Below, piece by piece: positions 17,445 to 27,444 of a stretch of 64,000 nt of DNA. Origin of the DNA: Thiomonas sp. Lineage in GTDB: Bacteria; Pseudomonadota; Gammaproteobacteria; Burkholderiales; Burkholderiaceae_C. The number at the start of each line of letters is the position of its first letter. The stretch's first letter is position 1. Location of the stretch: assembly GCA_027311065.1 (NCBI GenBank), contig DAICZP010000073.1, positions 29,133 through 93,132 of the forward strand, given 5' to 3'. Both the position numbers and the translations under genes were made by a program. The notes under the pieces were generated by a model. The model was not told the DNA's origin. It saw only the letters and a list, made by a program, of their open reading frames with translations, and did no database searches.

Positions 17445-17761
17445 GCCTTGCTCCCAGGTTCTTGCTGATAGATCAGCCGTTCAAGGGCGAGTGTGACGTT
17501 TTCCCCGCTGCGGCGCAAGCCTTTGAGCCGCAGATAGGCATCCTCGCTGATGCGAACCAGCTTGACCCCCTGGGGCGCCGGCGGCGGCTCATAGCGCACC
17601 AAGGCCCCCGCCAGGGCCTGGTACTTGGCCCCGTTGCCCGGAAGACCCTTGAGGAATGTTCCGTCACACCGTTGTGTGATCAAGATGGCATCCGGCGCCG
17701 CCGGATCGCCGGTCAGTTTGGCAATGACCTCGATCGTGTCAGATTCAGCCTTCTTCTTCAT
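17441..17761 (-). CDS. Hypothetical protein
   Basis: 106 aa MKKKAESDTIEVIAKL...; overlaps integrase 3' end and next ORF. Confidence 0.5.
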   Translation of the reverse strand: MKKKAESDTIEVIAKLTGDPAAPDAILITQRCDGTFLKGLPGNGAKYQALAGALVRYEPPPAPQGVKLVRISEDAYLRLKGLRRSGENVTLALERLIYQQEPGSKA

Positions 17762-18641
17762 AGAACCCCCGCAGGTAGACGCTTTTGACATACCGTCCTC
17801 GCCCGTCACCGTGGCCGAGGTCGTTCGATAACAGCCGTAGCGCTTCGTGCTCCGGCCGGCCTTCATCGAGATAGGCGCGCATCCGATCATGCGCAAATCG
17901 ATAGCGCAGCGCATGGCTCGCCTGTTTGCCGGACAGCCCCGCTTCGGCGCACAGCCGGCCGTATTGCCGGCGCGCCGCCGCGGGATTCGGGCTTGGAACG
18001 AGAAAGGCGCGTCCGTCCTTGAAGACATTCTCCGCCTGGGCGATCGCACTCCTTGCCGCAGACTCCATGGACGGGGCGATGCTGATCACACGCGGACGCC
18101 CGCCCTTGGTGGTGCCGGCGCGTACAGGCAACATGGGACGTCCCTCGCCGAACAAACGACTCCAGGCCTGGAGATCCGCTCGGGTCACACTCAGGGCCTC
18201 TTCCATACGCAGCCCGAGAGATGCCTGCAGGCTCGCCAGGGCGCAGAACTCCGGCCGTCCCTTGTCGAGGGCGGCCGTGATCTTCTCCCAGGTCAACGCT
18301 TCGTGCTTGCCCGTGCGGTCGCCGGGACGACTCGCGATCATCAGCGCCGCGTTCGACCATTCCGGCGCTTTGGCGGTCGTCTCGCGGCCTGCACCCTTCA
18401 GCGCCGCCCGGATATGGCTGGCGATGTTCTGCAAGGATCGAGGCGTTCCGCCCTGTGCCTGAATGAAGGCTTTGAATTGCTTGAGCGTCAGCGTTTCGGG
18501 CGTAAGGCTTCTCCACGTGTGCTCCTTGGCATAGCGCTCAAGTTGCGCAAAGGTGTGTTGCTTGTCATCACGGCTGCGCGTCGCGCCGCGCGCATGCCGC
18601 AGCGCGGCCTGCATGAAGCTCGCCTTGGTGCTCATTGCCAT
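17745..18641 (-). CDS. Tyrosine recombinase/integrase-domain protein
   Basis: LGLRMEEALSVTRADL, HALRYRFAHDRM, LGHGDGRGRYVKSVYL. Confidence 0.8.
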   Translation of the reverse strand: MAMSTKASFMQAALRHARGATRSRDDKQHTFAQLERYAKEHTWRSLTPETLTLKQFKAFIQAQGGTPRSLQNIASHIRAALKGAGRETTAKAPEWSNAALMIASRPGDRTGKHEALTWEKITAALDKGRPEFCALASLQASLGLRMEEALSVTRADLQAWSRLFGEGRPMLPVRAGTTKGGRPRVISIAPSMESAARSAIAQAENVFKDGRAFLVPSPNPAAARRQYGRLCAEAGLSGKQASHALRYRFAHDRMRAYLDEGRPEHEALRLLSNDLGHGDGRGRYVKSVYLRGFYEEEG

Positions 18642-21886: not shown

Positions 21887-22009
21887 CGCGGCTCAATCTC
21901 CCAAGAGGTGGCGGCGAACGCCGTGCGCCGGGTCGGGTTTCAAGTTCACGGATACAGCCCCCAGTAAGGCCGCGGCGACAGTTGCAATCGCATTCGTCGG
22001 CCCGACCCC

Positions 22010-22319
22010 TTGCGAATCCTGCGAATCCTGCGAATCGCTAGCGTTTATGCGGGTTCCAGCGGTTGCGAACGGGTTGCGAATATTGCGAATCGGGCTTCGT
22101 GCGGCTGCTGCATCCGGGGCGCCGCTTAGCGAATCAACGATGCTGTTGCGGGGTAGTTGCGAATTCTGCGAATCGCAAGCGTTTATGCGGCTGTTCGCAG
22201 AATTCGCAGCGTTGGTGGCGCCGCCGATCGCCGCTGCGAATTCGCAAGATTCGCAACCTATTCGCAACCCCGCAAAGCGAGCATTTATGCGGGTGTTCGC
22301 AGGATTCGCAAGATTCGCA
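22010..22319. repeat. Iteron-like array of TGCGAAT heptamers in both orientations
   Basis: About 17 copies, many with 9-bp spacing; perfect palindrome TGCGAATTCGCA at 22235-22246; three copies of GC(G/A)TTTATGCGG. Confidence 0.85.
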
Positions 22320-22352
22320 GGGGTGGCCGTGCGCTGCACGGTCCCCTGCACC

Positions 22353-24701
22353 TCAGTGCTGTGCATGATCGACTCCAAGTGCTGTGATGGCATCGCCATT
22401 GATTGCTACAAGGTTGCATGCGTGCAGACGCTCAATGGCTTGATCCCGGCGGTTCGCTGGGCGCACTGCGTTGGGGCCGATCCTTGGGATGTCGCGCAGC
22501 CGGGTAGGCGTGTTGCGCTCCGCAAGCCAGCGGTAAAGCGTCAAGGCCCAGTCCGGTACTGGGTCCGCTTTGCCGTCGAGTGCCGACAGCCACTGCGATA
22601 TCGAGTGCTGTGCCAAGGTTATGCCTGATTGCGCCTCGGCAAGAGCGACTGACTGGCCGCCACCAAACGCGGTCAGCACCCCAGCGATGCGGCATGCAAG
22701 TTCCGCCGCCCGCAGCGCGAAGGCCCGTACGTCTGCCAAGCTGCCGCGCCGGCCTTCTTCTTCCATCCCTTCAAAGAACTTTGCGATTGAGGCTCTGGCG
22801 TTAGCTGTAAGCGTCAGTGTGGGGAGGTTGTCGCACTCATGCGGCATCGGCAGCGATAGCAGCTTCTCGCAGCGATCCCAGTAAGCGCGGATTGCCTCGC
22901 TTTGCTCCGCCTGCCACGGTCGATCCTTGCGCGGCTGAAGCGGCGCAGGCCATGCGAGTAGAAATCGCGGCCAGAAGCCAATTCCCGACAGCGCATCGTC
23001 TGCCAGAACGTCGCCCAGCGCGGCAGGTTGAATCAGCAGGTGAGCGCTCAGGCGGACGCCATACCGCTCGGTTCGGCCACCACCTCCGCGAACGACGCTG
23101 ATATGGCCACGGTCCCAAAGGCCGCAAAGGCTCGCTGTGGTCTTGATCCGGTTCTCCTGGCTCATGGCGTGTCCGGCCAGGACGGCGCCCGCTTCAGTGC
23201 TGAAAATGCCTTGGGCAGCCACACCTTCATCGAAGCTGCGCCGCAATCCTTCAATGGTGAGATCTGCCGCCAGCCGATACGGGGCAGGCCCAAGTTCTGG
23301 AGCCGTTGCCTCGGCTTTTTTGCGCTTCGCCTTTTCCTGTTCGTGCATGTCACGCAGGAGTTGATACCGCTGCCCCTCACGGCGCTGAAATTCGTGAATG
23401 ACGCGCAGCGCGGGGCGGTCGGCGGTGTCCTTCCCATCGCCACTGTTCGCGACGGTCAGGCAGTAGAGGCTCAGCGGCTTTGTCGATCCATTCAAGGTCT
23501 GCACGTTGGCGATGCTCTGCGTGAGCAACGCGGCAGCGGCTAGCAGCGACTGACCGGCCATCGCGGGCGCTACCTGAGCCCCTGTTGCCAGATCGGCGGC
23601 AGCGGCGGCCAGCGGCCCAAGGGCATTGATCGGGTATGCCTGCTCCGTGTTTTGAAGCGCTGGCTTGAGGATGCTGGCAGCGCGGGCAATCGCGGCCTGT
23701 CGCGGCAGCCCGGGCAGCCGCGTCGCATCCTTCACCAGGTAGCGGACCGTGCCATAGGTGATGCCACCGTCCGGCTTATTGCTCGCCCAAGTGCGGTCAA
23801 ACACCTTCGCGTCGTACTTGTCCGATCTCATCGACCATTGGCGCGCTATGTCCTCGCCACTGGCCAGCCCAGTAGACGCAATCCCCCACAGGACATTACG
23901 CCAATTTTCGTACCCCATGCCGGGGTCAAGATGCGCGAGATCTGCCAGAATTTCGGCCTCGCTGACCTGGCCGGCGATTACGTCGCGAGCGAGTCCCAGC
24001 ACAGGCGCGCTGGTCCGCTGCGCCGCTGTGATGGCGATCTGCCCCATGATGTGATCAACGTCGATTGGCATCCCTTCAACGGCCTCTGACCTCGCGTTAC
24101 TCAACTGGTCAGCGGGACAGCGCGGCGAGTAGAAAAGCCTGGCCGGCTCTAGCGCACTGCGGTCGACGCAATGGTCCAGCCCGAGCATGCTTGCGACGTG
24201 TAGGCCGAGCGGCTTCAGTTGGGCGGGCAGCAGGGGATGGTTGATACCCAGGACGATGCGATAGCGTGGCGCGTCAGGAAGATGCTGAAAAGTTGTGTAT
24301 AGGTGGGCGGCCCACCCTTGAGCCCGGATGCGCTTGATTGTTTCATCCAGCGATGGCGGCTGGAGGTGTGGTGTGCTTTTCGCAGCCTCTATGTCGAGCA
24401 CCAAGAGGCTCAACGCTTGCACACGTTCACCTGTGCGCGGCCCGGGGTCGATCTGGGCCGGCATCCAGGCGGGGCCGTCTTTCAGATCGTTCACCGTCGC
24501 AGGGGTGACGACGCCACTAATTGCTACATGTTGGCCGAGTGCGTTGCCCAGTTGTTCCCACGTCACAGGCCCTGATTTTTTTACAGGGGAATGCCTATTA
24601 CTGACCAATGCGACGTTAATCCGCATAGAATTGACCATGTGCGCTGTATATTCGCTCGGATTATTGCAGGAGTCCGAGTGATTTTTTTCTTGGGCGATCA
24701 T
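22353..24701 (-). CDS. Primase/DUF3987-type replication protein of an integrative element
   Basis: PriCT-2-like segment (LDPGMGYENWRNVLWGIASTG...WSMRSDKYDAKVFDRTWASNK...ITYGTVRYLV) followed by a DUF3987-like region; start by ATGA overlap at 24698-24701. Confidence 0.75.
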   Translation of the reverse strand: MIAQEKNHSDSCNNPSEYTAHMVNSMRINVALVSNRHSPVKKSGPVTWEQLGNALGQHVAISGVVTPATVNDLKDGPAWMPAQIDPGPRTGERVQALSLLVLDIEAAKSTPHLQPPSLDETIKRIRAQGWAAHLYTTFQHLPDAPRYRIVLGINHPLLPAQLKPLGLHVASMLGLDHCVDRSALEPARLFYSPRCPADQLSNARSEAVEGMPIDVDHIMGQIAITAAQRTSAPVLGLARDVIAGQVSEAEILADLAHLDPGMGYENWRNVLWGIASTGLASGEDIARQWSMRSDKYDAKVFDRTWASNKPDGGITYGTVRYLVKDATRLPGLPRQAAIARAASILKPALQNTEQAYPINALGPLAAAAADLATGAQVAPAMAGQSLLAAAALLTQSIANVQTLNGSTKPLSLYCLTVANSGDGKDTADRPALRVIHEFQRREGQRYQLLRDMHEQEKAKRKKAEATAPELGPAPYRLAADLTIEGLRRSFDEGVAAQGIFSTEAGAVLAGHAMSQENRIKTTASLCGLWDRGHISVVRGGGGRTERYGVRLSAHLLIQPAALGDVLADDALSGIGFWPRFLLAWPAPLQPRKDRPWQAEQSEAIRAYWDRCEKLLSLPMPHECDNLPTLTLTANARASIAKFFEGMEEEGRRGSLADVRAFALRAAELACRIAGVLTAFGGGQSVALAEAQSGITLAQHSISQWLSALDGKADPVPDWALTLYRWLAERNTPTRLRDIPRIGPNAVRPANRRDQAIERLHACNLVAINGDAITALGVDHAQH

Positions 24702-25060
24702 GCGGCCTCCAGCGTGGAATAGAGATGGCCCTTGGCTTCTACGCGGAAAACAAGTGCAAAGGCTGCGCGGCATTCCTTGCAGTAAAGGGGGATGCGCAGC
24801 GCCGCGAATAGGTGGGTGTCATGCAGGACGCGCTCTGCATGTGCAGCGCCATCGACAAGGCACAGGTTGATGGCGTGGCGCCCTTGGTCCTCATTGCTCC
24901 TGTAATAACAGCCTTCGTACTGGATTTCATGCGCGAAGCGCAAGCCGCCAGTCTTGCAGTCAGGGCACACGTGGACGACCTTCTGCCCGAGGTTGGATAG
25001 GACGTAAGGCCCCGCCACTGGCGCTTGGCCAGCAACGAATGGAAAGCGCGGCTTAAACAT
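24698..25060 (-). CDS. Hypothetical protein with CPDC and CKEC zinc-ribbon-like pairs
   Basis: 120 aa, VVHVCPDCKTGGL...IPLYCKECRAAF. Confidence 0.55.
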   Translation of the reverse strand: MFKPRFPFVAGQAPVAGPYVLSNLGQKVVHVCPDCKTGGLRFAHEIQYEGCYYRSNEDQGRHAINLCLVDGAAHAERVLHDTHLFAALRIPLYCKECRAAFALVFRVEAKGHLYSTLEAA

Positions 25061-25247
25061 GGCTCACCTCGCTCTTGAGCGCCTTCAGCCACTTGGCGAC
25101 GTCTGACGCATACCAGCCCACGGCGCGCTGACCGAGCTTCACCGGCTTGGGAAATTCGTCGCGTGCGAGCTTGTCATAGATCGTTGAGCGTGCCTGCCCT
25201 GTCAGCCGTGCGACCTCGGGCAGTCTCAAGATCGGGTCGATGTCCAT
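25053..25247 (-). CDS. AlpA-family regulator
   Basis: MDIDPILRLPEVARLTGQARSTIYDKLARDEFPKPVKLGQRAVGWYASDVAKWL. Confidence 0.9.
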   Translation of the reverse strand: MDIDPILRLPEVARLTGQARSTIYDKLARDEFPKPVKLGQRAVGWYASDVAKWLKALKSEVSHV

Positions 25248-25340
25248 TTGAATATCTCCAGTTCCCACCGAGCGGCATTGCACGGTGCTGGAAGAATTGT
25301 CTAATTGGACTCGCGGCACTGTCACTGCACGTTTATTCCG

Positions 25341-26046: not shown

Positions 26047-27249
26047 TCAAGCTGCGTGCGCCATGTGGACGACATTGCTCGCCCCGCCGCAATAACTGGC
26101 CCAGGCGTCCATGAGTTCCCGGCGCTTGTCGAATAGATCAGAGCGTTGATAGGCGGCTTCCACCTTGTCCGGGTTACCGTGCGCCAGGCACAGTTCACAC
26201 ACGCGGGCAGGGAAGGCGGTTTGTTCTGCCGCCCAGTCGCGGAATGCGCTCCGGAAACCGTGCACGGTCACATCGGAGGCGACGCTGTGCAATGTCTTGT
26301 TGACGGCCACATCAGACAATAGGCCGCCGCGTGCGCCGGGGAATACCAGCGCGCAGTCCTCACGCCGCCACTGCTGCACGGTGCGCAGGATTGCCAGCGC
26401 GTCCTCTGGCAGCGGCACGCGGTGCGGCTTGGCAGCCTTCATGCGTGCCGCCGGGATCGTCCAGACCTTAGCCGCCAGGTCGATTTCATCCCATGTCGCC
26501 CCGCGTCCTTCGCCCGATCGGCAGGCGGTCAGGATGAGGAAACGAAGTGCCAGGGCCGATACATGCCCCTTGTCGCGCAGCGCGGCCATGATGCGGGGCA
26601 GGTCGGCGTAAGGGGCTGCCGCATGATGTTCCTTCGTGCGCACCTTGTCGGGCTTCGGCAGCACCTTGTCAAGCATGCCCTTCCAGCGCGCCGGATTGCG
26701 TGTGCCGTCGCACAGGTCATGCACAGCGGCATAGTCCAGTACGGCCTCGATGCGCTGGCGCACTCGTGTCGCCGTTTCGGTCTTGGTTGCCCACATCGGC
26801 AGCAGGATGGCCTTTACATCGGCCAGGCTGACCTCCGCCGGAGCCTTTTCCCCCAGGGATGGATAGGCATAGTCTCGCAGCGTGTTCGCCCACTGCTGGG
26901 CATGCTTGGCATTGCGCCAGCCCGGGCGCTTGGCCTCAATCAGTGCCGCCGCGCACTGCTGGAAGGTCATGCCCTGCGGCTTGGCGTTGCCGCGAAGCAA
27001 CTCGGCAGGGTCGCGGCCATCGGCATAGGCGGCGCGCATTCCTGCGGCCAGTTCACGTGCGGCCTTGAGTGTGCGTGCGTTCACGGAACCCAGCCCAAGC
27101 TCGCGCACGCGGCCTTTTTCTTTGAACCGGTACACCCAGGCGCGAGAGCCGCCCTTGACTCGCAAATACAGGTTGCCGCCGTCGCTGTGAAAGCCCTCGG
27201 GCAGCGTGTCCACTTGCCGGGCTGTGAGCTTGCCTATCGTGGTTGCCAT
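26047..27249 (-). CDS. P4-type tyrosine integrase
   Basis: MATTIGKLTARQVDTLPEGFHSDGGNLYLRVKGGSRAWVYRF; LTACRSGEGRGATWDEIDL; VHGFRSAFRDWAAEQT. Confidence 0.94.
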   Translation of the reverse strand: MATTIGKLTARQVDTLPEGFHSDGGNLYLRVKGGSRAWVYRFKEKGRVRELGLGSVNARTLKAARELAAGMRAAYADGRDPAELLRGNAKPQGMTFQQCAAALIEAKRPGWRNAKHAQQWANTLRDYAYPSLGEKAPAEVSLADVKAILLPMWATKTETATRVRQRIEAVLDYAAVHDLCDGTRNPARWKGMLDKVLPKPDKVRTKEHHAAAPYADLPRIMAALRDKGHVSALALRFLILTACRSGEGRGATWDEIDLAAKVWTIPAARMKAAKPHRVPLPEDALAILRTVQQWRREDCALVFPGARGGLLSDVAVNKTLHSVASDVTVHGFRSAFRDWAAEQTAFPARVCELCLAHGNPDKVEAAYQRSDLFDKRRELMDAWASYCGGASNVVHMAHAA

Positions 27250-27444
27250 CGTCTGATCTCCGGTCACTTCGCGCCTGGCATCTGTTGTGCAGGTCGGGTG
27301 GACTGTCTTACCGTTGATCTTACCGTAAAGCTCGGATCACAGGGGATGACGTTGGACGTTTCTGAACTCTAAAGTTTCATAAGTATTTGAAAAAAAACGA
27401 ACTATCGTACGACGTTAGATCTCTCTAGAACTTAGTTCGGCGGG

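Follow-up and report, generated by a model that had tools for sequence, protein, structure and literature searches.

The PICI EcCICFT073 requires both rep and ori to replicate in E. coli DH5alpha, and its ori lies immediately 3' of rep (PMC6092414). In SaPI elements, the Rep protein is reported to read iterons located downstream with its C-terminal domain and to bind as two hexamers (PMC7581432). For the PICMI satellites, deletion of the primase gene lowers copy number, and the model used to search for such satellites employs DUF3987/DUF5906 (PMC10803314).

The window analysed here, a whole stretch of 64 kb of Thiomonas sp. DNA, contains a dense array of TGCGAA words behind a primase/DUF3987 gene. 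This array is very probably the replication origin of an integrated PICI/PICMI-like element, to which the DUF3987 protein would bind through a winged helix as two facing hexamers. The reading rests on the position of the array directly behind the DUF3987 gene and on a layout conserved as DNA, on gene-first and DNA-first surveys that link such arrays to DUF3987 genes, and on the EcCICFT073 PICI origin, in which the array detector recognises an array of this kind in the corresponding position.

Position and symmetry of the array

The element has the order int - alpA - primase/DUF3987 - array. It encodes a tyrosine integrase (26047-27267, minus strand; Pfam and PHROG integrase), an AlpA-type excisionase/regulator (25053-25325, minus strand; Pfam Phage_AlpA, 1.5e-17), and the proposed initiator, an 806-aa protein with primase, PriCT_2, DUF3987 helicase and winged-helix parts (22353-24773, minus strand; Pfam, PHROG, AlphaFold2 and Foldseek). 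A small protein of 120 aa, without Pfam or PHROG match, is encoded between alpA and the primase gene (24698-25060, minus strand). A search for att sites gave no convincing repeat, and the ends of the element were not found. The whole primase, used as query against the genome contigs, found no relative. Some 4 kb beyond the array, the window also carries a second integrase-like gene (17745-18641; Pfam Integrase_1, 298 aa), which may belong to another element or else delimit the present one on its far side.

A distance of 33 bp separates the stop of the primase/DUF3987 gene from the start of the array, whose placement just 3' of this gene by the earlier note was correct. Between 22011 and 22319 lie 17 of the 34 TGCGAAY heptamers found on both strands of the window, while the other 17 are scattered across the remaining 63.7 kb. 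This agrees with the earlier estimate of about 17 heptamers in 310 bp, and every heptamer position and 9-bp spacing given at that time proved exact. The array reaches a periodic-hexamer score of 10, whereas none of 60 dinucleotide shuffles scored above 1, and no second copy of the TGCGAA array exists in the 2.76-Mb assembly.

A feature absent from the earlier note is the precise dyad formed by outer and inner triplets. Around a mirror axis at about 22165, 12 of the 17 copies are arranged as six forward and six reverse, two triplets per orientation, with the spacings >9>9>35>11>9> ... <9<11<35<9<9<. The outer forward triplet consists of three TGCGAAT at a 9-bp period (22011-22035, plus strand), and the inner one of TGCGAAC, TGCGAAT and TGCGAAT, spaced by 11 and 9 (22064-22090, plus strand). 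Beyond the axis, the inner reverse triplet has copies at 22240, 22249 and 22260 (22235-22266, minus strand) and is followed by the outer reverse triplet, again at a 9-bp period (22295-22319, minus strand). Both outer triplets are kept in relatives. The inner reverse triplet overlaps one forward copy within TGCGAATTCGCA (22235-22246), the perfect palindrome that had already been noticed at 22235.

Five extra copies go beyond the 6+6 mirror and form an FF..RR..F set inside it. The FF..RR part constitutes an additional central unit with a dyad of its own (22158-22208, no strand assigned), with forward copies at 22158 and 22167, reverse copies at 22193 and 22202, and arms (22158-22172 and 22194-22208) that are 100% complementary. 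An Rfam search of the window returned no match. A second motif, GC(G/A)TTTATGCGG, of which three interspersed copies had been reported previously, is found on the plus strand as GCGTTTATGCGG at 22041-22052 and in two further copies at 22179-22190 and 22281-22292; in relatives the motif is loosely kept as CATNNATGCGGG adjoining the outer triplets. The AT content is 0.42 in the array, 0.37 at its centre and 0.37 on average in the window; neither the array nor the DNA next to it contains an AT-rich region for melting.

Recurrence of the array in related elements

Relatives were sought from DNA and from protein. The DNA scan, which took one genome per species and looked for three spaced TGCGAAT, yielded at least 119 loci. 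Among the matches listed, a DUF3987 gene accompanied 20 of 27 facing arrays vs 9 of 92 one-sided ones (Fisher 1.9e-10, a test that assumes independent loci although related elements are not independent), and the facing arrays at DUF3987 loci, again among the matches listed, lay almost always just past the 3' end of the gene. A cluster analysis of array loci found no gene besides DUF3987 common to most of them. The complex layout is rare, occurring in 4 of 401 genomes of the family, the window's own included; a pattern search at phylum level over 399 sampled genomes matched the window's own array only (1/399).

The arrangement of the array is conserved among these relatives. Two loci (L055 and L078) show the layout >9>9>46>10>10>39<10<10<46<9<9<, and L047, L050, L073, L115 and L148 carry close variants of it. 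Inner triplets mostly have a 10-bp period, and the gaps between outer and inner triplets measure 35/36, 45/46 or 55 bp, that is, they change in steps of about one helical turn. In an alignment of 11 loci the hexamer columns are near-invariant and the spacers drift. Judged from the sequences, conserved hexamers and helical-turn gaps point to DNA bound by a protein and not to a peptide. A hairpin-RNA reading was also considered and rejected, since the hexamers alone are kept.

Other arrangements of the same words were observed. At the 3' end of the DUF3987 gene of five loci (L039, L068, L077, L082 and L104), the order is the opposite one, with a reverse triplet, 28-40 bp and a forward triplet. 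Facing TGCGAA triplets with no DUF3987 gene in the examined DNA occur in Planctomycetes (L061, L080 and L139) and Falkowbacteria (L074, L092 and L152), where the neighbours are unremarkable (RecG, an aminotransferase and unknowns); the word may serve an unrelated purpose there.

The protein-based survey covered 89 DUF3987 genes, the majority picked regardless of repeats and a minority through the TGCGAA scan, with a hexamer array defined as a score of 2 or more and same-strand spacings of 8-12 bp allowed. An array was present at the 3' flank of 60 of the 89 genes vs 4 of 85 5' flanks, and at 25 of 807 control 3' flanks (3%) from an unbiased gene-end set. The comparison of 60/89 with 25/807 gives a Fisher value of 9e-51, again on the assumption of independent loci, which does not hold for related elements. 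For protein-selected loci alone, the figures are 44/89 at 3' flanks vs 2/89 at 5' flanks. Both orientations are represented in 53 of the 60 arrays (all loci), and a same-strand spacing of 9 bp accounts for 134 of 174 cases within 8-12 bp (protein-selected loci). Where the score is 3 or higher, a median of 42 bp separates the domain end from the start of the array. As a minimal unit, >9>9>~30<9<9< is the usual form, and the window array looks like an instance of a general rule for DUF3987 elements.

About one third of the 89 genes have no array detectable by the hexamer-score test, and none accompanies yfjI in the cryptic CP4-57 prophage of E. coli K-12. DUF3987 genes were present in 42 of 250 genomes sampled at the order level and 29 of 232 at the class level. 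Split arrays, with parts on both sides of the DUF3987 gene, occur in L181, L182, L183, L184 and L185 and in L170 and L107, either with the reverse half 3' and the forward half 5' or with a small >9>9>18<9<9< array on each side. A circular 19-kb record of P. putida (L187, NZ_CP043577.1) has a YfjI-family (DUF3987) gene as its sole annotated replication-like gene and gave a borderline GTCGCC signal only; the record may represent an excised element or a naturally occurring plasmid that replicates by means of DUF3987.

The repeated word differs among elements, which use TGCGAA, TGCGGA, GGCGAA, TGCTAY, GCGACA or GCTTAA. For instance, one relative (L171) whose C-terminal half is 67% identical to the window protein carries a TGCGGA array, while GGCGAA (L172) and TGGCTA (L008) replace TGCGAA in two others. 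Words can switch between similar proteins, as between the window and L171 (69% ATPase identity) or between L227 with GCGACA and L222 with CTGCTA (71%). A word that changes with its initiator is what is expected of a protein-specific site. Two Psychrobacter plasmids have a GCTTAA array behind the DUF3987 gene and also encode RepM, so the DUF3987 array is not the sole replicon there.

The detector was also run on the EcCICFT073 origin as a positive control. It reported TCTACC with a score of 5, in both orientations and just 3' of pri-rep, against a maximum of 1 in shuffles and a score of 1 at the 5' flank. The Rep of this element has D5_N/DUF5906/Pox_D5 domains, an ATPase family other than DUF3987.

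The predicted initiator and readings of the array

The 806-aa protein matches DUF3987 (PF13148) in Pfam at 3.9e-56, with 191 bits against a cut-off of 27, and PriCT_2 at 5e-10; its PHROG matches are to primases and helicases. An AlphaFold2 model of residues 350-806, built with 60 aligned homologues, reached a pLDDT of 94 and ends in a winged helix. This C-terminal domain (residues 739-798; 22380-22559, minus strand), delimited by the modelled H-H-H-strand-strand order and by alignment, is the candidate reader of the hexamers. Foldseek comparison of the modelled protein with the PDB placed MCM helicases as best matches (E about 5e-6, TM 0.34-0.44), in line with the published prediction of DUF3987 as a helicase family (PMC5862659); a PDB search by sequence produced nothing useful. 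DUF3987 together with its winged helix is predicted to fold like an MCM helicase.

Covariation between reader and word is weak and suggestive only. Beyond ATPase identity, hexamer similarity correlates with winged-helix identity at a partial r of 0.28 over all loci and of 0.14 (p 0.016) once TGCGAA-chosen loci are excluded. In the alignment, the residue after the conserved winged-helix motif GPxx[VLI]R is mostly S, P or T in users of TGCGAA, D in most users of TGCTAY, and E, Q or D, followed by K, in users of GCGACA, a per-residue pattern that is confounded by phylogeny.

An iteron origin of the element, as first proposed from the letters of the window, gains support from the comparative sequence analysis, in that most DUF3987 loci show the same placement and arrangement, which also match the tested PICI origin. 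In the mechanism that we propose, which is likened to the description of SaPI Rep (PMC7581432), the DUF3987 protein, which joins an N-terminal primase region to an MCM-like AAA+ ATPase, would bind the TGCGAA hexamers through its winged helix, one site per subunit. Same-strand copies about one helical turn apart would set neighbouring subunits on one face of the DNA, and the two mirrored sets of six hexamers each would seat two protein hexamers face to face. We infer that these facing hexamers open the DNA and that, after excision, copying proceeds both ways, with the protein's own primase region presumably used for the start. Against the origin reading stand the missing AT-rich region, the DUF3987 genes lacking an array, yfjI of E. 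coli K-12 among them, RepM on the Psychrobacter plasmids, and the failure to find the ends of the element.

The array could alternatively be an operator at which some small regulator, or the DUF3987 protein itself, controls transcription of the replication operon or of downstream genes, the origin lying elsewhere. Arrays of binding sites also serve in autoregulation, half-arrays flank the DUF3987 gene in some elements, its promoter side included, and the lack of an AT-rich region fits an operator as well. Yet in nearly all loci the full array stands behind the gene and not in front of it, its word follows the replicative helicase, and the tested PICI origin shares its place and build; we regard an operator as improbable.

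The suggestion, also made in the earlier note, that the array is a partition, incompatibility or immunity site found no support and is very improbable. Iteron arrays can function in incompatibility, but no ParA/ParB-like gene was seen in the element with Pfam and PHROG, and the gene to which the array is linked is that of a helicase. For an immunity RNA the spacers would have to pair, but it is only the hexamers that are kept.

Long reading frames cross the array because TGCGAA and TTCGCA contain no stop in any frame. One of them, of 168 aa (21893-22399, minus strand), has no Pfam or PHROG match and is judged a by-product, as had been suspected of the overlapping frames in general; in relatives the repeat period is not codon-phased. 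In four loci (L167, L168, L173 and L169), the DUF3987 frame itself has no stop before the array and reads on through it, which extends the C terminus by some 90 aa of repeats. The alignment of homologues had been set beforehand as a comparison of DNA with peptide conservation, and its outcome, conserved hexamers and phasing, goes against the peptide. That the array is a coding sequence maintained by selection on a repetitive peptide (SQDSQ, SRINA) is scarcely credible, despite the long open frames and the crossing of some 90 codons in these four loci, given frames held open by composition, conservation in hexamers and not in spacers, 10-bp inner triplets and gaps of 35, 46 or 55 that keep no repeat peptide, and no family match in Pfam or PHROG.

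Comparison with described origins and satellites

While this kind of origin is known from PICI and SaPI elements, its DUF3987 version appears to be undescribed in the open-licence literature searched, where no description of DUF3987 function and origins was found. In a broader reading, which we consider evenly poised, DUF3987 proteins would make up a large and so far unrecognised class of MCM-like initiator helicases that load themselves, each with its own two-hexamer origin behind the gene and a winged helix that reads the word by a decodable code. If the origin reading is true, one rule, a mirrored hexamer array of 9-bp period just behind a DUF3987 gene, would locate the origins of many mobile elements. 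The same layout written in different words offers a way into the question of how the origin is read by the protein, and the words and winged helices available in nature would provide a direct test of origin recognition by an MCM-like helicase.

The iterons of plasmids of the RK2 and R6K type are about 17-22 bp long and are read by small Rep proteins. The window array resembles them in having direct repeats bound by an initiator, putatively so in the window, and departs from Rep_3/RepA plasmids in its words of 6-7 bp at a 9-10 bp period and its putative helicase reader. Closer in this last respect is the SCCmec Cch2 origin, where the direct repeats bound by a helicase lie just downstream of the gene that encodes it (PMC7581432), although that origin has three 5-nt iterons and a D5-family helicase.

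Among satellites, the PICMI elements share with the window element the combination of integrase, alpA and DUF3987/DUF5906-type primase. They reside in Vibrio, whereas the host of the window element belongs to the GTDB family of Thiomonas, and the main text that describes them presents no origin and does not mention iterons (PMC10803314). Further marks of a PICMI satellite are integration downstream of fis and a helper phage that induces and packages it. The PICI origins of EcCICFT073 and SaPIbov1 differ from the window array in having an AT-rich region between the two sets. The initiator is DUF3987 with PriCT_2 in the window and D5_N/DUF5906 in EcCICFT073, the hexamer is TGCGAA in the former and TCTACC in the latter, and the strict 6+6 mirror of most close TGCGAA relatives is a further difference. 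In both cases, the primase-rep gene belongs to an int/alpA element and is followed immediately on its 3' side by two sets of short iterons in both orientations, and the initiator, a putative one in the window, doubles as helicase (PMC6092414, PMC7581432).
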